Source: a virus. From it: a DNA stretch of 45,681 nt. The position numbers were made by a program, and so were the translations under genes. The notes under the pieces were generated by a model that was not told the origin of the DNA, did no database searches, and worked only from the letters and a program-made list of their open reading frames with translations. Of the stretch, positions 15,553 through 43,209 are shown one piece after another (within the stretch, counting starts at the first letter, position 1; each line of letters begins with the position of its first letter). The stretch lies in the IMG/VR virus record IMGVR_UViG_3300049893_001145, positions 1-45,681 of that record; one strand, given 5' to 3'.

Positions 15553-16202
15553 TTGTAAAATTCGATAAAAAAATAACAGAAAATAATCCTAAGCTGTTCG
15601 AGTACATTGAATCTCGTAACATCTGGTCAATAATTTATTTTCTCATCGATACAGACGCGCGCAAGTCTGTTGTTCTACAAGACTGGTTAAAAGATTTCGT
15701 ACGTAATCCTTCTGAAGAATTAAAGAAAGCTTGTGACGAAATACTCGACAACAAAGACTCGGATTATGTTATGACTGATATTCTTAGATTCGTGCAGAAA
15801 AAAGTTAAATACACTGGCGATATGGAAAAATGGAAGATGGCTGACAAATGGCAATCTCCTGCTGAAACTTTATCTTTAGGTACTGGCGATTGTGAAGACG
15901 GTGCAATCCTCATCTATTGTATGGCAATATTGAAAGGTGTTCCGGTGAATAGATTATTATTATTGTGTGGCGATGTCGTCGGTGGAGGACATTGTTGGTT
16001 AGCATATCGTTCTAGTGAGTATCCTCTAAACTGGTGTTTCATGGACTGGTGTTACTGGTATGATAGAAATTCTCCGTCGAGTAGAACTAAATATTTCATC
16101 GATGGTCAACAAATATTTGATGATCCAACCAACAATTATAAGAAAATCTGGTTCGGTATCAACCACCTTAACGGGTATTACGGCTTAGTTAACCGTAGTT
16201 AA
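15549..16202 (+). CDS. Transglutaminase-like cysteine protease, 217 aa
   Basis: A papain/transglutaminase-like triad is visible: Cys115 in GTGDCEDGA, His148 in GGGHCWLAY and Asp166 in CFMDWCYW. The start ATG 15549 overlaps the previous stop (ATGA), rejecting an upstream TTG. It is one of few enzymes in the tail module. Possible roles are cleavage of tail proteins, cross-linking, or attack on the cell surface during entry. No signal peptide. The last gene before the non-coding stretch. Confidence 0.72.
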   Translation: MIVKFDKKITENNPKLFEYIESRNIWSIIYFLIDTDARKSVVLQDWLKDFVRNPSEELKKACDEILDNKDSDYVMTDILRFVQKKVKYTGDMEKWKMADKWQSPAETLSLGTGDCEDGAILIYCMAILKGVPVNRLLLLCGDVVGGGHCWLAYRSSEYPLNWCFMDWCYWYDRNSPSSRTKYFIDGQQIFDDPTNNYKKIWFGINHLNGYYGLVNRS

Positions 16203-16273
16203 CTTCTAGTAGTTATTCACCCTTTGCCTCTTGGAAACGGCTTCGGTGTTAGGTGTAAGTAGTTCTAAAAAGC

Positions 16274-16287
16274 GAACACTTATAAAT
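16274..16287 (+). promoter_or_regulatory. Late promoter box (GAACACTTATAAAT), before non-coding RNA region
   Basis: One mismatch to the 14-base consensus, with no reading frame downstream for 385 bases. A -10 type start would fall near 16294, at the base of the hairpin AAGATAC/GTATCTT (16294-16313); an archaeal start would fall near 16310. It should therefore make a small RNA. Confidence 0.6.
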
Positions 16288-16313
16288 ATGTAAAAGATAC
16301 TTCACAGTATCTT

Positions 16314-16343
16314 AAACCGGTTGCAGATCGGTTTTCTTTTTTT
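16314..16343 (+). terminator. Hairpin plus T-run (possible terminator or attenuator)
   Basis: AAACCG (16314-16319) pairs with CGGTTT (16329-16334) and is followed by TCTTTTTTT. This is the form of an intrinsic terminator; T-runs also end transcripts in archaea. It lies only ~50 bases after the promoter box, so the product would be a very short RNA unless read through into the hairpin cluster that follows. Confidence 0.55.
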
Positions 16344-16514
16344 ACAACGTCTAGTTGGCCGTGCTAAACGTCTCTAGCATCATTAGTACCCTGCATAGAG
16401 TGGGATTAGTTCAACCTTTACCCCTGTGGTTTCCGTATTCGGATACGACTAAGCGTATTAGTTGAGCCGACTTCACTGTCGGAATCTCTCGTCGGAACGA
16501 GAGTTATGTGTTGT
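16344..16514 (+). ncRNA. Candidate structured RNA with at least five perfect hairpins
   Basis: A closing stem ACAAC/GTTGT (16344-16348 with 16510-16514, extended by two G-U pairs) encloses TGCTA/TAGCA (16362-16379), CGTAT/ATACG (16434-16447), ACTAA/TTAGT (16448-16462), CCGAC/GTCGG (16467-16482) and CTCTCGT/ACGAGAG (16486-16503). The last four are almost back to back. The G-U pairs work only on the + strand, so that is the likely sense. It does not fit a tRNA and I do not recognise the family. Confidence 0.5.
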
Positions 16515-16540
16515 GAGTTTAGGAAAAGATGAATTTACTA

Positions 16541-16554
16541 ATTTATAAGTATTC
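16541..16554 (-). promoter_or_regulatory. Late promoter box on the - strand, facing the structured RNA
   Basis: On the - strand this reads GAATACTTATAAAT, a perfect match. It points left, into 16517-16270, where there is no - strand gene. It would make an RNA antisense to the hairpin cluster. The + box at 16581 lies about 30 bases away and points right, so this is a divergent promoter pair. Confidence 0.55.
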
Positions 16555-16580
16555 CTTATTTCTATTTTTTATAATTATGT

Positions 16581-16594
16581 GAATACTTATAAAT
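16581..16594 (+). promoter_or_regulatory. Late promoter box (GAATACTTATAAAT), before fibre genes
   Basis: Perfect match to the consensus. It drives the gene starting at 16673 and the collagen-like fibre behind it. The transcript would carry a leader of about 55-70 bases with an 8-base-pair hairpin and no Shine-Dalgarno sequence. Confidence 0.65.
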
Positions 16595-16633
16595 CAAAAT
16601 AACAATAAGAATTGCATATCACCTCATTAAATT

Positions 16634-16660
16634 AGGTTGCCAGATGTCACCCGGCAACCT
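16634..16660 (+). other. Leader hairpin AGGTTGCC/GGCAACCT
   Basis: Perfect 8-base-pair stem with an 11-base loop, ending 12 bases before ATG 16673. The start lacks a ribosome site, so the hairpin may help position or block ribosomes, or be a protein-binding site. An upstream ATG at 16643 would begin inside the loop and is less likely. Confidence 0.6.
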
Positions 16661-16672
16661 TTCATACTCACT

Positions 16673-17056
16673 ATGGCACTAGTTATTGATTCGGAAACGG
16701 GAGATATTTCTCTCAAAGCAGGAGATTCGGGAACGATAGAATTCTACTTCTGGGAAGATGATGCACACACTCAAACTAAAGATATGACTGATTGTACTGC
16801 ACGTTTTACCGTTAAGAAAGTATTAGATAACGATGTTACTGATGCGAAAGCAGTTATAAAAATAGATGAGGTGTTATCATCTACAACGCCGGTTAACTTA
16901 GCAGCAATCTCTCTGGATAGTAATAATTCAGTTACTGGCACCGATGTTGTTCCGGGACAATATTATTACGATCTAAAAATACACCCTTCGTCTGGCGATA
17001 ATTACTATGCTTATTCTGGTAAATTCACAGTAACGCAAGCGGTGACTAAGAGATGA
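16673..17056 (+). CDS. Fibre-adaptor (BppU-like) protein, 127 aa
   Basis: Beta-rich protein with [20 protein letters not shown] at the N-terminus and [10 protein letters not shown] ... [17 protein letters not shown] at the end, the pattern of small immunoglobulin-like upper-baseplate proteins that hold fibres. The start chosen ([11 protein letters not shown]) avoids placing the leader hairpin in coding sequence. It overlaps the fibre gene by ATGA. Confidence 0.6.
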
Positions 17057-19455
17057 CTGACGCATTCTATGTAACGGTAGCAAATGCCCAACCTATAAAT
17101 GTTAGTGTTGCAAAAGCTAATCCTGTCAATGTAACAGTTGCAGCGGGCGTAGCAGGACCTAGAGGCCATACTGGTTACACTGGTTATACTGGCTACACTG
17201 GTTATACAGGATATACGGGTGCTACAGGCTATACGGGTTATACTGGGCCAGCTTCTACTATTACTGGACCAACAGGTTATACTGGTTATACGGGTCAAAC
17301 AGGTTATACTGGCTACACTGGATTTATAGGTCCGCAAGGTATTCAAGGTATTCAAGGATCAACAGGTTACACAGGGTATACCGGATATACAGGTTACACT
17401 GGAAGTCAAGGCGCAACCGGTTATACGGGATTCACAGGTTACACAGGTCCTGTTTCAAATGTAACAGGTCCTACAGGTTACACAGGTTACACGGGCTATA
17501 CCGGTTATACAGGTTATACTGGTGCAGTAGGTGCTGGTGGTACTTTAGGTTACTATGGTGCTTTCCAAGATACTACTAATCAAGCTATTGCTAACGTAAC
17601 TCAATCATATCCTGTAGCTATAGGGATTACAGATGAAGCTTCTGGCGTTTCTATTGTTGATGGTAATAAGATTACCTTCGCTTTCGCTGGAACTTATAAC
17701 ATACAATACTCCATACAATTCAGTAATGCAGATACAGTATTGCAAGACGCAAATATCTGGATTCGTAAGAACAATAACGACGTTGCTGACACTAACAGTA
17801 TTTACAACATTCCTGAAAGTCACGGAGGCACGCACGGACACGCAATAGCTGCCGTAAATTATGTCCTTACTTTGGCAGCAAACGACTATATTCAACTGAT
17901 GTGGTCTGCTTCTTCTACAGATGTATCTATCGAAACTCATCCTGCTCAAACTAATCCAACAGTTCCAGTTACTCCGGGAGTAATTGTAACCGCTCAACAG
18001 ATTATGTATACACAATTAGGGCCGACAGGTTATACGGGCTACACAGGATATACAGGTTACACAGGCTATACTGGTGCGGCTAGCACAGTAACTGGTCCGA
18101 CAGGATATACTGGTTACACTGGTCCTATTGGACCGACGGGTTATACGGGATACACGGGTGCCGATAGTACGGTGACTGGTCCAACAGGTTATACTGGCTA
18201 TACTGGATATACCGGGCCTCAAGGTAATGTAGGTCCAACAGGTTTTACAGGATATACTGGATATACTGGTGCAACAGGATACACAGGTTACACTGGTGCT
18301 GCAAGCACCGTTACAGGTCCAACTGGATATACCGGTTATACTGGTTATACTGGACCTACAGGTTATACTGGTTATACAGGTTATACTGGTGCTAATGGTG
18401 GAAACGCTGGTAAAATATTTTATTTAACAAACGATGCGGCAGACGTTGCAACATATTACCAAGCATTAGTTTCTCCTTCGGCTGGAGCACAATCTACACT
18501 AGCTCAAGCAAACACAGGTACTGGGGATACATTACTCGCTGCTTTTGTTACTTATCCAACAGGCGGTATTGGTGTTGATGCATTACCGGCTGGTACGGCT
18601 TTCAGACATTTCCATTACACTATAGTTGGTTCTGGTGGTGGCGCTGACCCAACGTATGGTAGATTTAAGGTAGAACTTTACAAGCGAACTCAGGCTGGTG
18701 CAGAAACGCTTTTACGTTCTGGTTATTCTGACAATTTGACAGGAACAAGCATCACCGAAACTGAGTTCTCATACTCAGATTCAAATAGTTTTGCTTTAGA
18801 CCCTACGGATAGAATTGTCTTCAAGATTTACACTGCTCGTGTTAGTGGTAAGGCCACTGCTACGATGACGCTGTATATGGAAGGAACAGACAATTCGTCT
18901 TATATTCAAACGACAATCTCTGCTGGTGCAGCTGGTCCAACCGGTTATACAGGTTATACTGGTTATACAGGAACTACAGGTTATACAGGTTATACAGGTT
19001 ATACGGGCTATACTGGTGCTGCAAGTACAGTCACAGGACCCACGGGTTATACTGGTTACACGGGTCCGGCTAGCACAGTTACTGGTCCTACTGGTTACAC
19101 TGGATATACAGGTTATACTGGAGCAACAAGTACTGTTACTGGACCAACTGGATATACCGGGTATACGGGTTATACAGGACCACAAGGTAATATTGGACCT
19201 ACAGGATATACAGGTTATACTGGCTATACAGGTGCTGCTTCAACTGTAACTGGTCCAACTGGGTACACAGGCTATACAGGATATACTGGGGCACAAGGCG
19301 CTACTGGTTACACTGGATATACAGGGGCGGCTAGTACAGTTACTGGTCCGACTGGTTATACTGGGTATACAGGTTATACTGGAGCAACTGGATATACGGG
19401 TTATAGTGGTCCAGCTGGCGGTTCAAACTTTTTAGTAACACAAGTATTTAGTTAG
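17053..19455 (+). CDS. Collagen-like tail fibre, 800 aa
   Basis: After a ~35-residue attachment region come three collagen-like blocks (about residues 36-160, 327-452 and 628-785) made of Gly-Tyr-Thr and Gly-Pro-Thr triplets with a recurring [11 protein letters not shown] break. Between them lie two globular beta domains: ~161-325, with the [12 protein letters not shown] start and repeated strands of a C1q/TNF-like jelly roll, and ~453-627. It probably forms a trimeric fibre for host binding. Codons in the repeats vary silently, which lowers DNA-level identity. Confidence 0.82.
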
Positions 19456-19831: not shown

Positions 19832-20809
19832 ATGACTAGACCAACTATTCGTAGAACGACTGATTTATTCTTTGGTACTTGGATTAATACTGCGGTTTAT
19901 GGATATATTAGTGGTGGAACTACTGATGGTGGGGGCACCAAGGTAGCAACTACGGATAAATTAACTTATGCTACAGATGTAACAGCAGCACAAACGGCCT
20001 CAAATCTTCCGGAAACTAGGGCAAATTCTCTAGGTTTGAGTGATACTAATATTTATGGTTATTCTTTGGGGGGAGACACAGGGGCATATACTAACACAGG
20101 TATTAGATTTACATTATCAACAGCAGCTTATGCTGCCAACACTGCCTCTAACTTAACTGCTAACAAAACATTTATTTCTCCTACGGGTTTGTCCGACAAA
20201 CAAAATTCAGGTTATATTTTGGGGGGTTATACTGGAGCCTACGTTGCAACTGGTGATAAAATGACTTTTTCAACCAGCACAACAGCGGCCAGCACGGTTA
20301 GTAATTTATCTACAATAGGTGGTTTTGTTCATAATATTTATGGTGGAACTACTTATGGATATTCTGTTGGAGGTTATAGAACAGGTGCCGTTAGTGCTGT
20401 AGCAGATAGAATCACTTTTACTACTTCGGCAACTGCTGCAAACACTGCTTCAAATTTATCTATAGCTAAATATGCAGGGGGCGTTGTTAGTGACCAAAGT
20501 ACTTATGGTTATATCTGCGGAGGATATACTGCAACATCTTCTGGATTTTATGCAGCTACAGACAGAATGACTTTTAGTACTGGAGCCTGTGCTGCCAATA
20601 CTGTTAGTAATATATCTGTAGCTCGGGGTCAACTAGCAACAGTATCTGGAACAACCGCTGGATATATTATGGGTGGCTTAACTAATAATGCACGTTCCGC
20701 TATTACTGATAAATTAGTATTTAGTACTGGAGTAACAGCAGCACAAACTAGCGCAAACTGTTCTTCTGTAAAAATAGATATGTGTGGATTTTCAGACAGG
20801 TGTGCATAA
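19832..20809 (+). CDS. Six-repeat propeller-like protein A, 325 aa
   Basis: Six repeats of ~48-52 residues, each with an aromatic-Gly-Tyr then GG motif (YGYSLGG, SGYILGG, YGYSVGG, YGYICGG, AGYIMGG), a D-K/R-hydrophobic-T-F-S/T-T strand and an A-A-N/Q-T-x-S-N segment. This looks like a kelch-type six-bladed beta propeller. No signal peptide. A receptor-binding or fibre-tip role is likely from position. Confidence 0.75.
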   Translation: MTRPTIRRTTDLFFGTWINTAVYGYISGGTTDGGGTKVATTDKLTYATDVTAAQTASNLPETRANSLGLSDTNIYGYSLGGDTGAYTNTGIRFTLSTAAYAANTASNLTANKTFISPTGLSDKQNSGYILGGYTGAYVATGDKMTFSTSTTAASTVSNLSTIGGFVHNIYGGTTYGYSVGGYRTGAVSAVADRITFTTSATAANTASNLSIAKYAGGVVSDQSTYGYICGGYTATSSGFYAATDRMTFSTGACAANTVSNISVARGQLATVSGTTAGYIMGGLTNNARSAITDKLVFSTGVTAAQTSANCSSVKIDMCGFSDRCA

Positions 20810-20810
20810 T

Positions 20811-21758
20811 ATGAGACAATTAAACTTAGGACAAATATCACCAGTAAGTGCTTGGACACAACAATCTACTTTTGGTTTCTATATTGGTGGTAATGGACCA
20901 GTAACTACAGCAGATAAGGTGACCTATTCTACTTCTACTGTTGCTGCTAATACTGCATCTAACTTAGCAGTATCTAGGTCATTTGCAGCTGGATTTAGTG
21001 ATTGTACTAATACTTACGCTTATATGTTAGGAGGAAATACCGGAACTGCTGTTAGTACTTCTTTGAGATTTACTTTCTCAACCCAAGCTAGTGCTGCGAA
21101 TACTGCTTCAGATATTACTACTGCTACATATTTCTTTTGTAATGCAGGATTATCTGATAAAGTTACGTATGGTTATTCCGGAGGAGGTTATACTGGAGCA
21201 TACGTAGCTACAGCATATCGTTTAACTTTCTCATCAGGTGCAACTGCGGCAAGTACTGTATCGAACTTATCTACTATATCCGGTTTCTCAGCAGCAATAT
21301 ATGGTGGTTCTATTTTCGGATATTGGGGTGGTGGTTTTTCTTCAGCTGCAAGAGCAGCAACAGATAGGATAACTTTCTCTACTTCTGTTACCGCTGCTAA
21401 TACTGTTTCTAATTTATCTCAAGCTAGATATGACTTATCAGCAGTTAGTGACCAGTCAGTAGCAGGTTACTGGTGTGGTGGAACTACTGGTGCTGGTGTT
21501 GCAACAGGAGACAAAATAACTTTTAGTACTGGTGCAACAGCTGCAAATACTGTTTCTAATTTATCAACAGCACGTTCTGAAAGTTTCTGTTCATCGGATG
21601 GTACTACTTATGGTTATCAATGCGGCGGTATAACTTCAGCAGATGTTGCCACAGGTGACAGATTAACATTTAGTACAGGAGTTAATGCCGCACAGACTAC
21701 AGCAAACTTATCAGGAACAAGACGTGGTGGTTCTAGTTTCTCAGACAGGAGTGCTTAA
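20811..21758 (+). CDS. Six-repeat propeller-like protein B, 315 aa
   Basis: Paralogue of the preceding gene with the same six repeats (FGFYIGG, YAYMLGG, YGYSGGG, FGYWGGG, AGYWCGG, YGYQCGG) and the same ending (G-x-x-FSDR-x-A). ATG 20811 follows the previous stop by one base. The N-terminal ~18 residues (MRQLNLGQISPVSAW) differ from copy A and may be an attachment peptide. The pair may form alternative or joint receptor-binding tips. Confidence 0.75.
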   Translation: MRQLNLGQISPVSAWTQQSTFGFYIGGNGPVTTADKVTYSTSTVAANTASNLAVSRSFAAGFSDCTNTYAYMLGGNTGTAVSTSLRFTFSTQASAANTASDITTATYFFCNAGLSDKVTYGYSGGGYTGAYVATAYRLTFSSGATAASTVSNLSTISGFSAAIYGGSIFGYWGGGFSSAARAATDRITFSTSVTAANTVSNLSQARYDLSAVSDQSVAGYWCGGTTGAGVATGDKITFSTGATAANTVSNLSTARSESFCSSDGTTYGYQCGGITSADVATGDRLTFSTGVNAAQTTANLSGTRRGGSSFSDRSA

Positions 21759-41762: not shown

Positions 41763-41963
41763 TTAAGCACCTCTAAATAATAAAAATAAAGCTTGTGTTG
41801 TTGCCTCGTCGCCCATACGTAAAGCATAATCAGACCATGCGTTTTTAACACCCATTTTTAAGGCTTGGTGTTGCTCTCGATAAAATAAGGCGTTGTTATA
41901 ATGCCCTTCAGCACTTATTAATAAATCGATTGCGTCTTTTGTTGTTTGTGTCGTTTGTTTCAT
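41763..41963 (-). CDS. First gene of the leftward early operon, 66 aa
   Basis: Helical protein (TTKDAIDLLISAEGHYNNAL; GDEATTQALFLLF) directly downstream of the strong TATA-like box at 42020-42029. GGGAGAAC is its ribosome site. As first early gene it may act in takeover of the host. Not recognised. Confidence 0.6.
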   Translation of the reverse strand: MKQTTQTTKDAIDLLISAEGHYNNALFYREQHQALKMGVKNAWSDYALRMGDEATTQALFLLFRGA

Positions 41964-42019
41964 ATTGTCATGTTCTCCCGTGGCTACTGTGCCACTGATA
42001 CACCCTTAAAGACACGTTG

Positions 42020-42029
42020 TATATATAAA
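42020..42029 (-). promoter_or_regulatory. Early promoter TATA-like box (TTTATATATA)
   Basis: On the - strand this reads GGTTTATATATAC, the archaeal TATA consensus. The centre of TTTATATA is ~63 bases from ATG 41963, so the leader is ~35 bases in an archaeal reading and would contain a GTGGC/GCCAC hairpin and the ribosome site GGGAGAAC. It differs from the late box, consistent with early, host-driven expression. Confidence 0.6.
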
Positions 42030-42449
42030 CCTTGTGAAACATAAGTACATATTCGTATGTTATTAAGCCACTTGTCGCCATTATCCCTTAATATCAATAC
42101 ATTTAGGCACTAAATAAACCTTAAAATAAATAGCACTGGACACAAGACAAAAGACCCAGTGCCTACTATTTTTTATGTGTGAGCGTGTCTTTTTCTCCTC
42201 GCCACAGCCTTAAGAAAACAACCTTATTTTAACCACACAACAACAAACCATAAACACACCCAAAACAGACCCGAAAAATAGGTCTTTTTTAGCCCTTTTT
42301 TACGCACAAATCACTTTTTTTTATACTTTTTTCATGCCCAAAACACCCTTAAATCAATAAATTCATTCCTTAACGCTAAACCTTAACTTATGTTTTATCT
42401 CATGTTTAATGTCGTGTTGTATGTCAAGTTATAACTTAAGCTTAGTCTG

Positions 42450-42500
42450 TAGGCTAGGTAAGAGCTAGGTTAGGTAAGAGCTAGGTAAGAGCTAGGTAAC
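42450..42500. repeat. Iterons: TAGGT repeated in 11-base phase
   Basis: TAGGT occurs at 42455, 42466, 42471, 42482 and 42493, mostly within GCTAGGTAAGA units. Steps of 11, 5, 11 and 11 bases put most copies on one face of the helix, as in binding arrays of replication initiators. Confidence 0.7.
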
Positions 42501-42507
42501 CCAGTGA

Positions 42508-42536
42508 TTAAAGTATAATATGTATATATACTTTAA
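42508..42536. repeat. AT-rich dyad TTAAAGTATA / TATACTTTAA
   Basis: Perfect ten-base inverted repeat with a nine-base AT-only spacer, eight bases after the iterons. It could be the unwinding or initiation point, or an operator. Confidence 0.65.
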
Positions 42537-42584
42537 TAACTAGGGAGCACGGGGAAAAAATAACAAATCAGTGGTAGAACTGGC

Positions 42585-42629
42585 TAGTTGTTAGTTGTTA
42601 ATAGTTGTTTGCGTTTACGAATAGTTGTT
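42585..42629. repeat. Short direct repeats TAGTTGTT (four copies)
   Basis: Copies at 42585, 42592, 42602 and 42622, with steps of 7, 10 and 20 bases. Related sequences occur at about 43139-43155. Possibly a second protein-binding array in the control region. Confidence 0.55.
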
Positions 42630-42900
42630 GATAACTAATAAGGGCGAATGTTAGCACATGAGCCAGTAGTTATTGAGTGTTTGCGTATTGTGTGTATCAT
42701 TATGCGCATATATGTGCAATATTATGCAATATCATGCAGTAGTGTGCATCACACAGTATGTTCTCCTCGCTATATGCAGTATGTGTCGTGCTGATGTATA
42801 TACTAAACAATATATTGCACTGCATCAAGTAGTCGCATCATCTCGTCGACAAAAGTATAAAGTTTCGAAATAAGCATTCTTTTCTTTTAACTTCTTGGGT

Positions 42901-42962
42901 GGGAGAGTCAGTTACGAATCAGTTTTTAGCAGGGAGAGTCAGTCACGAGTTATTTTTTAGGA
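42901..42962. repeat. Two 31-base tandem repeats with GGGAGAGTCAGT
   Basis: Units 42901-42931 and 42932-42962 begin with the same 12 bases and end in a T-run plus TAGCA or TAGGA; a truncated third unit (GTCACGGG) follows. Located between the iterons and the ribbon-helix-helix gene, they may be operators for that protein. Confidence 0.65.
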
Positions 42963-43032
42963 GTCACGGGTCCCCGGGCTCTTTTTCGCCGGAAATAAAT
43001 TTTTTGAGTTTCTCTTGAGTGTTAACAAACCG

Positions 43033-43050
43033 ATAGATATATAAATAAGT
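43033..43050 (+). promoter_or_regulatory. Second promoter-type motif (ATAGATATATAAATAAGT), rightward
   Basis: Identical over 18 bases to the - strand motif at 36891-36908. It is the last promoter-like site before the terminase operon and gives a leader of about 140-160 bases before ATG 43210. The leader holds no reading frame. Confidence 0.55.
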
Positions 43051-43209
43051 ATAGGTAAGAGAATAGATAAAGACGCATACAGCAAAAAACCTACACGCAA
43101 AATGTAAACAAAAAGGCGTCTTGTTATTTTTTCAGAATAGTTAGTTTTCAATAGTTGTGACCAGCTCATGTCAATAAACTGAGTATTTTTTAGTGGGAGA
43201 AGAAAGAAA

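Follow-up and report, generated by a model that had tools for sequence, protein, structure and literature searches.

A candidate structured RNA gene on the minus strand between the tail and fibre genes of a tailed virus, probably of a DPANN archaeon

The phi29 pRNA is reportedly a virus-encoded stand-alone RNA of about 174 nt that has its own promoter. In archaea, the promoter layout consists of a TATA box roughly 26 to 30 bases ahead of the gene start, combined with leaderless mRNA, and genuine structured RNAs typically have A-rich loops. The record on DPANN viruses is sparse; a groundwater study that assigned one virus to a host among the Nanoarchaeota describes it as unclear in what way cells of this small size sustain infection (PMC10980836).

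Here we analyse one virus record of 45,681 bases (the whole stretch is referred to as the window), and we tentatively propose, at close to an even chance, that a gap between its tail and fibre genes holds a stand-alone structured non-coding RNA gene on the minus strand, in a tailed virus probably of a DPANN archaeon. The putative RNA is similar to phi29 pRNA in kind, i.e. it has its own (here predicted) promoter, a length of about 170-230 nt, several helices and paired ends. It differs from phi29 pRNA in having no sequence or Rfam match to it, and in its location between tail and fibre genes and not at the packaging end. The preliminary description of this DNA had suggested a packaging RNA, and for this we find no support; Rfam gave no match to the pRNA family of the phi29 type. 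The features of the region, given in window positions, are the following.

16203 to 16672, no strand: non-coding gap; the previous ORF (a transglutaminase-like tail gene) ends at 16202 and the next ATG, of a fibre-module gene, is at 16673
16274-16287, plus: box GAACACTTATAAAT, predicted start at about 16309
16312-16293, minus: perfect 8-bp hairpin with a GUGA loop, then UUUU; the minus RNA probably ends here (3' end)
16317-16343, plus: hairpin with TTTTCTTTTTTT after it; probably terminates the plus-strand tail operon
16344 to 16519, minus: predicted structured RNA core, z -3.0 to -3.3, unpaired bases A-rich on the minus strand only
16510-16514/16344-16348, minus: predicted helix P1, probability 0.5-0.7
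16497-16503/16486-16492, minus: predicted helix P2, UCCG loop
16478-16482/16467-16471, minus: predicted helix P3
16440-16465/16411-16435, minus: predicted rod P4
16388-16400/16372-16383, minus: predicted helix P5, its two terminal pairs at about 0.5
16364-16369/16349-16354, minus: predicted helix P6
16541-16554, minus: box GAATACTTATAAAT, an extended archaeal TATA box; candidate promoter of the minus-strand RNA, predicted start at about 16519 by the family spacing rule
16581-16594, plus: box GAATACTTATAAAT; candidate promoter of the fibre module, predicted start at about 16616
16634 to 16660, plus: hairpin AGGTTGCCAG...CCCGGCAACCT in the fibre-gene leader, 12 bases upstream of the ATG

A 470-base non-coding stretch inside the tail module had been claimed and is borne out: the longest ORF contained wholly in 16203-16672 has 36 aa, and ORFs resume at the ATG at 16673, with a TTG at 16637 in frame with that ORF. 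The accompanying remark that nearly all genes overlap is correct for the tail module; other gaps of about 190-820 bases exist. The boxes, the hairpins (including those within 16434-16503) and the 171-base unit closed by ACAAC/GTTGT at 16344-16514 were all found in place. The fold of the whole gap has a z-score of -4.5 on the plus strand and -6.2 on the minus strand; these values, much stronger than those of the core, are inflated in part by the palindrome that the two facing boxes form. An imperfect inverted repeat of 28 nt (16267-16294 / 16534-16561, 79%) lies on either side of the unit, and the promoter box makes up half of each of its arms.

The window contains 8 copies of the sequence CTTATAAAT, where shuffling predicts 1.2 (none of 100 shuffles reached 8), and 3 of the 8 fall within the 470-base gap. 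Two window boxes lie 30-31 bases upstream of an ATG and the genes in question have no Shine-Dalgarno motif; internal operon genes of the window often carry GAGGT-like motifs. We compared this spacing with that in a family of related viruses, collected by a terminase alignment that gave four relatives (52-55% identity) and a second one that gave 59 contigs, most with 40-56% identity. Over about 40 long stretches of these contigs, the positions of TATA-like motifs show a sharp maximum 28 to 30 bases ahead of the ATG; 39 TATA-like sites are found at -32 to -27 among 1359 ATGs of the family, as opposed to 5 among 2199 ATGs of the controls. The peak is missing in the controls, 76 contigs chosen only by a distant terminase match. 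Boxes at about -26 to -30 of leaderless gene starts, as expected of archaeal TATA boxes, are thus found across the family, and the predicted start sites given above were placed accordingly at the first T of the box plus 29.

The boxes had been called late promoter boxes. The promoter-like character stands and they lie mostly upstream of structural genes, but their spacing fits that of archaeal TATA boxes. With archaeal core promoters they have in common the TTATAAAT box, the distance of 28-31 bases to the ATG, the lack of a Shine-Dalgarno motif there and the family-wide positional peak, whereas the conserved context (GAATAC) is unusually long in this virus, which suggests a virus-specific or late-class variant of the promoter. 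The late promoter of the T4 type, TATAAATA, has the string TATAAAT in common with the boxes and both are biased to structural genes. We rejected this reading on the distance of 28-31 bases to the ATG and on the presence of relatives in archaeal bins; a late sigma factor of the T4 type was absent among the protein-family matches.

Within the 171-base core most helices have a probability of at least 0.8, the exceptions being P1 and the two terminal pairs of P5. The core scores z -2.5 on the plus strand and -3.3 on the minus strand (600 dinucleotide shuffles); this is moderate, and a few other windows of the genome score alike. On the minus strand, A accounts for 44% of the unpaired bases and U for 16%; on the plus strand the shares are 25% for A and 41% for U. 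Among the minus-strand loops are the tetraloop sequences UCCG and GUGA. With a G+C content of 46.8%, the core belongs to the top 2.5% of windows of its size in a genome of 37%, and the flanks are A+T-rich (G+C about 15-25% on the right, 28-30% on the left). The start predicted from the minus box, 16519, lies five bases ahead of the closing stem P1. Among 68 TATA sites of the family that face non-coding DNA, the one at 16541 on the minus strand ranks first when fold, G+C and A-bias are combined. The minus strand, driven by the 16541 box, is most likely the RNA strand, because the predicted start lies close to the closing stem, the z-score is better, the loops are A-rich and a GUGA hairpin (16295-16312, arms AAGATACT/AGTATCTT) is followed by UUUU. 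A structured RNA that matches no known family had been claimed, and the core z-score, the helix probabilities and the lack of an Rfam match lend support to it; a new structured viral RNA is a plausible reading of this single sequence.

We infer the transcription of this RNA, both its ends and its mode of action as follows. The extended TATA box at 16541-16554 on the minus strand would be recognised by host TBP/TFB, perhaps helped by a late factor of the virus. Transcription would start near 16519 and cross the core, where P1 would join the 5' and 3' ends around five helices, and the GUGA hairpin with its UUUU would terminate it near 16290, for a total length of about 180-230 nt. On the other strand, the hairpin and T-run at 16317-16343 would halt the tail operon ahead of the RNA gene; transcription for the fibre genes would then restart from the box at 16581. 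The minus RNA would most likely act via a bound protein, as a decoy or a scaffold, and not by base-pairing with mRNA. This mode is a guess by elimination, since the core is predicted to be tightly folded with its ends paired and no convincing complementarity to viral gene starts was found. The fuller proposal, that no structured non-coding RNA gene was known before from a DPANN tailed virus and that this one is late, on the minus strand, protein-binding, without known relatives and inserted at the tail/fibre boundary, is one we put forward with somewhat less than even confidence.

Control of fibre expression had also been suggested. In its explicit form the minus RNA would be one half of a sense/antisense pair: RNA from the plus box at 16274 (about 35 nt, or read-through) would anneal to the 3' portion of the minus RNA, and together they would set fibre expression. 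The two boxes do face each other across the unit. The plus transcript, predicted to begin at about 16309, shares sequence space with the 3' tail of the minus RNA, and this tail is partly complementary to the fibre leader hairpin. However, a transcript from the 16274 box is predicted to be only about 35 nt long when it meets the T-run at 16331-16343, which should end it short of the core. Nor does the minus RNA pair significantly with the fibre leader: 22 of 300 shuffled leaders pair equally well and several other viral gene starts pair better, and antisense targeting of viral gene starts by the minus RNA was not significant in general. Control of fibre expression thus gains no significant support, and we regard the sense/antisense pair as improbable. 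Another account is that the gap is mainly transcription punctuation, comprising a plus-strand terminator, divergent promoters and a leader hairpin, and that the core is unselected or a spacer left by a swap of the fibre module. The terminator-like hairpin and T-run at 16317-16343 and the promoter at 16581 are where such an account expects them, the downstream fibre module is unlike those of the relatives, and the gap is lineage-specific. What it leaves unexplained is the G+C-rich core with its five high-probability helices and with A-rich loops on one strand only, as well as a promoter that places the start five bases ahead of the closing stem. We consider this account unlikely, though it deserves to be kept in mind.

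Two further readings do without an RNA. The inverted repeats could belong to a DNA-level element (a replication origin, or a recombination or insertion site) and merely resemble RNA stems, a view for which the 28-nt repeat around the unit speaks. But half of each repeat arm is a promoter box, no recombinase or transposase is found among the scanned proteins, a better origin-like non-coding region is present at 41.9-43.2 kb and the loop composition is strand-biased; we hold such an element to be very unlikely. Lastly, a non-coding stretch in an otherwise packed module could be the remnant of a decayed gene. The best of the six-frame peptides searched against 3.2 Mb of fetched loci reached only E 0.008 over 19 residues, and the core exceeds its flanks in both structure and G+C, so that we see hardly any likelihood in this reading.

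Returning to the minus-strand RNA gene, we searched for homologs and known families. Rfam 15 gave no match at the gathering score in the window, and a permissive Rfam scan of 16100-16750 gave only chance matches to eukaryotic snoRNA/miRNA families (E 0.19 and 2.3). No tRNA (introns allowed, default settings) or tmRNA was called in the gap, and loosened tRNA thresholds gave only mutually overlapping low-score matches there. The gap DNA had no significant match in phages, in the virus's own record or in records of related viruses; an 18-mer taken from the core had one chance match among viral contigs; blastn, six-frame tblastn and nhmmer with the gap found nothing significant in the 3.2 Mb of fetched loci; and a scan of viral contigs with the promoter boxes found unrelated contigs only. 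A covariance model built from the one sequence, and so of little power, gave nothing significant in related loci totalling 1.4 Mb or in 371 genomes from the phylum of one Woesearchaeota MAG. This model, R1, recovers itself along with marginal matches in a locus of the viral set (L219, E 0.79) and in two genomes (E 0.05 and 0.17, not significant among 371 genomes), and the alignments of these matches lack many core stems.

The tail/fibre junction of the relatives was also compared. Two relatives (G001 and G026) have a transglutaminase gene that runs directly into the next gene; in relatives found through the transglutaminase most junction gaps are below 125 bases, a few longer ones occur in distant relatives, and none of the gaps matches the RNA model. 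Relatives without conserved stems or boxes had been named in the preliminary description as evidence against a viral RNA, and this is largely the situation we find. Since no homolog was found and the junction is mostly tight, the unit appears to be a lineage-specific insertion known from this one copy, as far as the sequence collections show. The structured gaps of the relatives contain mainly single long hairpins, unlike the multi-helix unit of the window. Very strong long hairpins are present in L195 near 10458 (minus strand), L211:3754-4454, L191:11649-11896 and L181:2349-2723; such hairpins reach z of about -9 to -12 and are of a different kind from the window unit. Some G+C-rich gaps of the relatives resemble intron-containing tRNAs. 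Like the window unit, these form G+C-rich, structured islands between genes within this virus family, but the gap of the window has no tRNA call at default settings with introns allowed. The tRNA genes of the relatives are at L182:15694-15841, L182:15956-16059, L180:12531-12609, L201:9003-9394 and L198:7304-7539, and several are called with anticodon-loop introns, that of a tRNA-Thr, for example, being 76 nt long. Near L194:2370-2480 and L204:17360-17445 there are odd units that resemble tRNAs.

As to the host, the capsid-protein alignment matches five MAG contigs, two assigned to Woesearchaeota, one to Nanoarchaeota, one to a further archaeon and one to WOR-3, and these contigs have portal and/or protease homologs in common with the window. 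The bacterial WOR-3 contig is possibly mis-binned. The terminase alignment against genome contigs gave no relative. The tRNA calls with introns in some relatives are compatible with archaea. A DPANN host is likely because the archaeal TATA spacing, the capsid relatives in archaeal bins and the intron-containing tRNAs point the same way, even though binning of viral contigs into MAGs is not proof. If the RNA is real, a virus would be supplying an RNA of its own to a host whose genome is very small, and there is one strand and one start site to test. Independently of the RNA, about 60 viral contigs (the whole window and loci L017-L020, L109-L163 and L215-L219) form one terminase family with archaeal TATA spacing. 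They are probably a group of DPANN tailed viruses, and we point to them as a useful lead to such a group.

A few other features of the window can be mentioned. The leader hairpin at 16634-16660 is strong, and no Shine-Dalgarno motif is present between it and the ATG of the fibre gene. The region 41852-43200, between the minus- and plus-strand gene blocks, is long and largely non-coding, contains tandem GCTAGGTAAGA units and inverted repeats, and looks like an origin or an early control region. Further along the fibre module, a collagen-like fibre protein with GYTGYTG repeats is encoded at 17053-19455, followed by two paralogous repeat proteins at 19832-20809 and 20784-21758.
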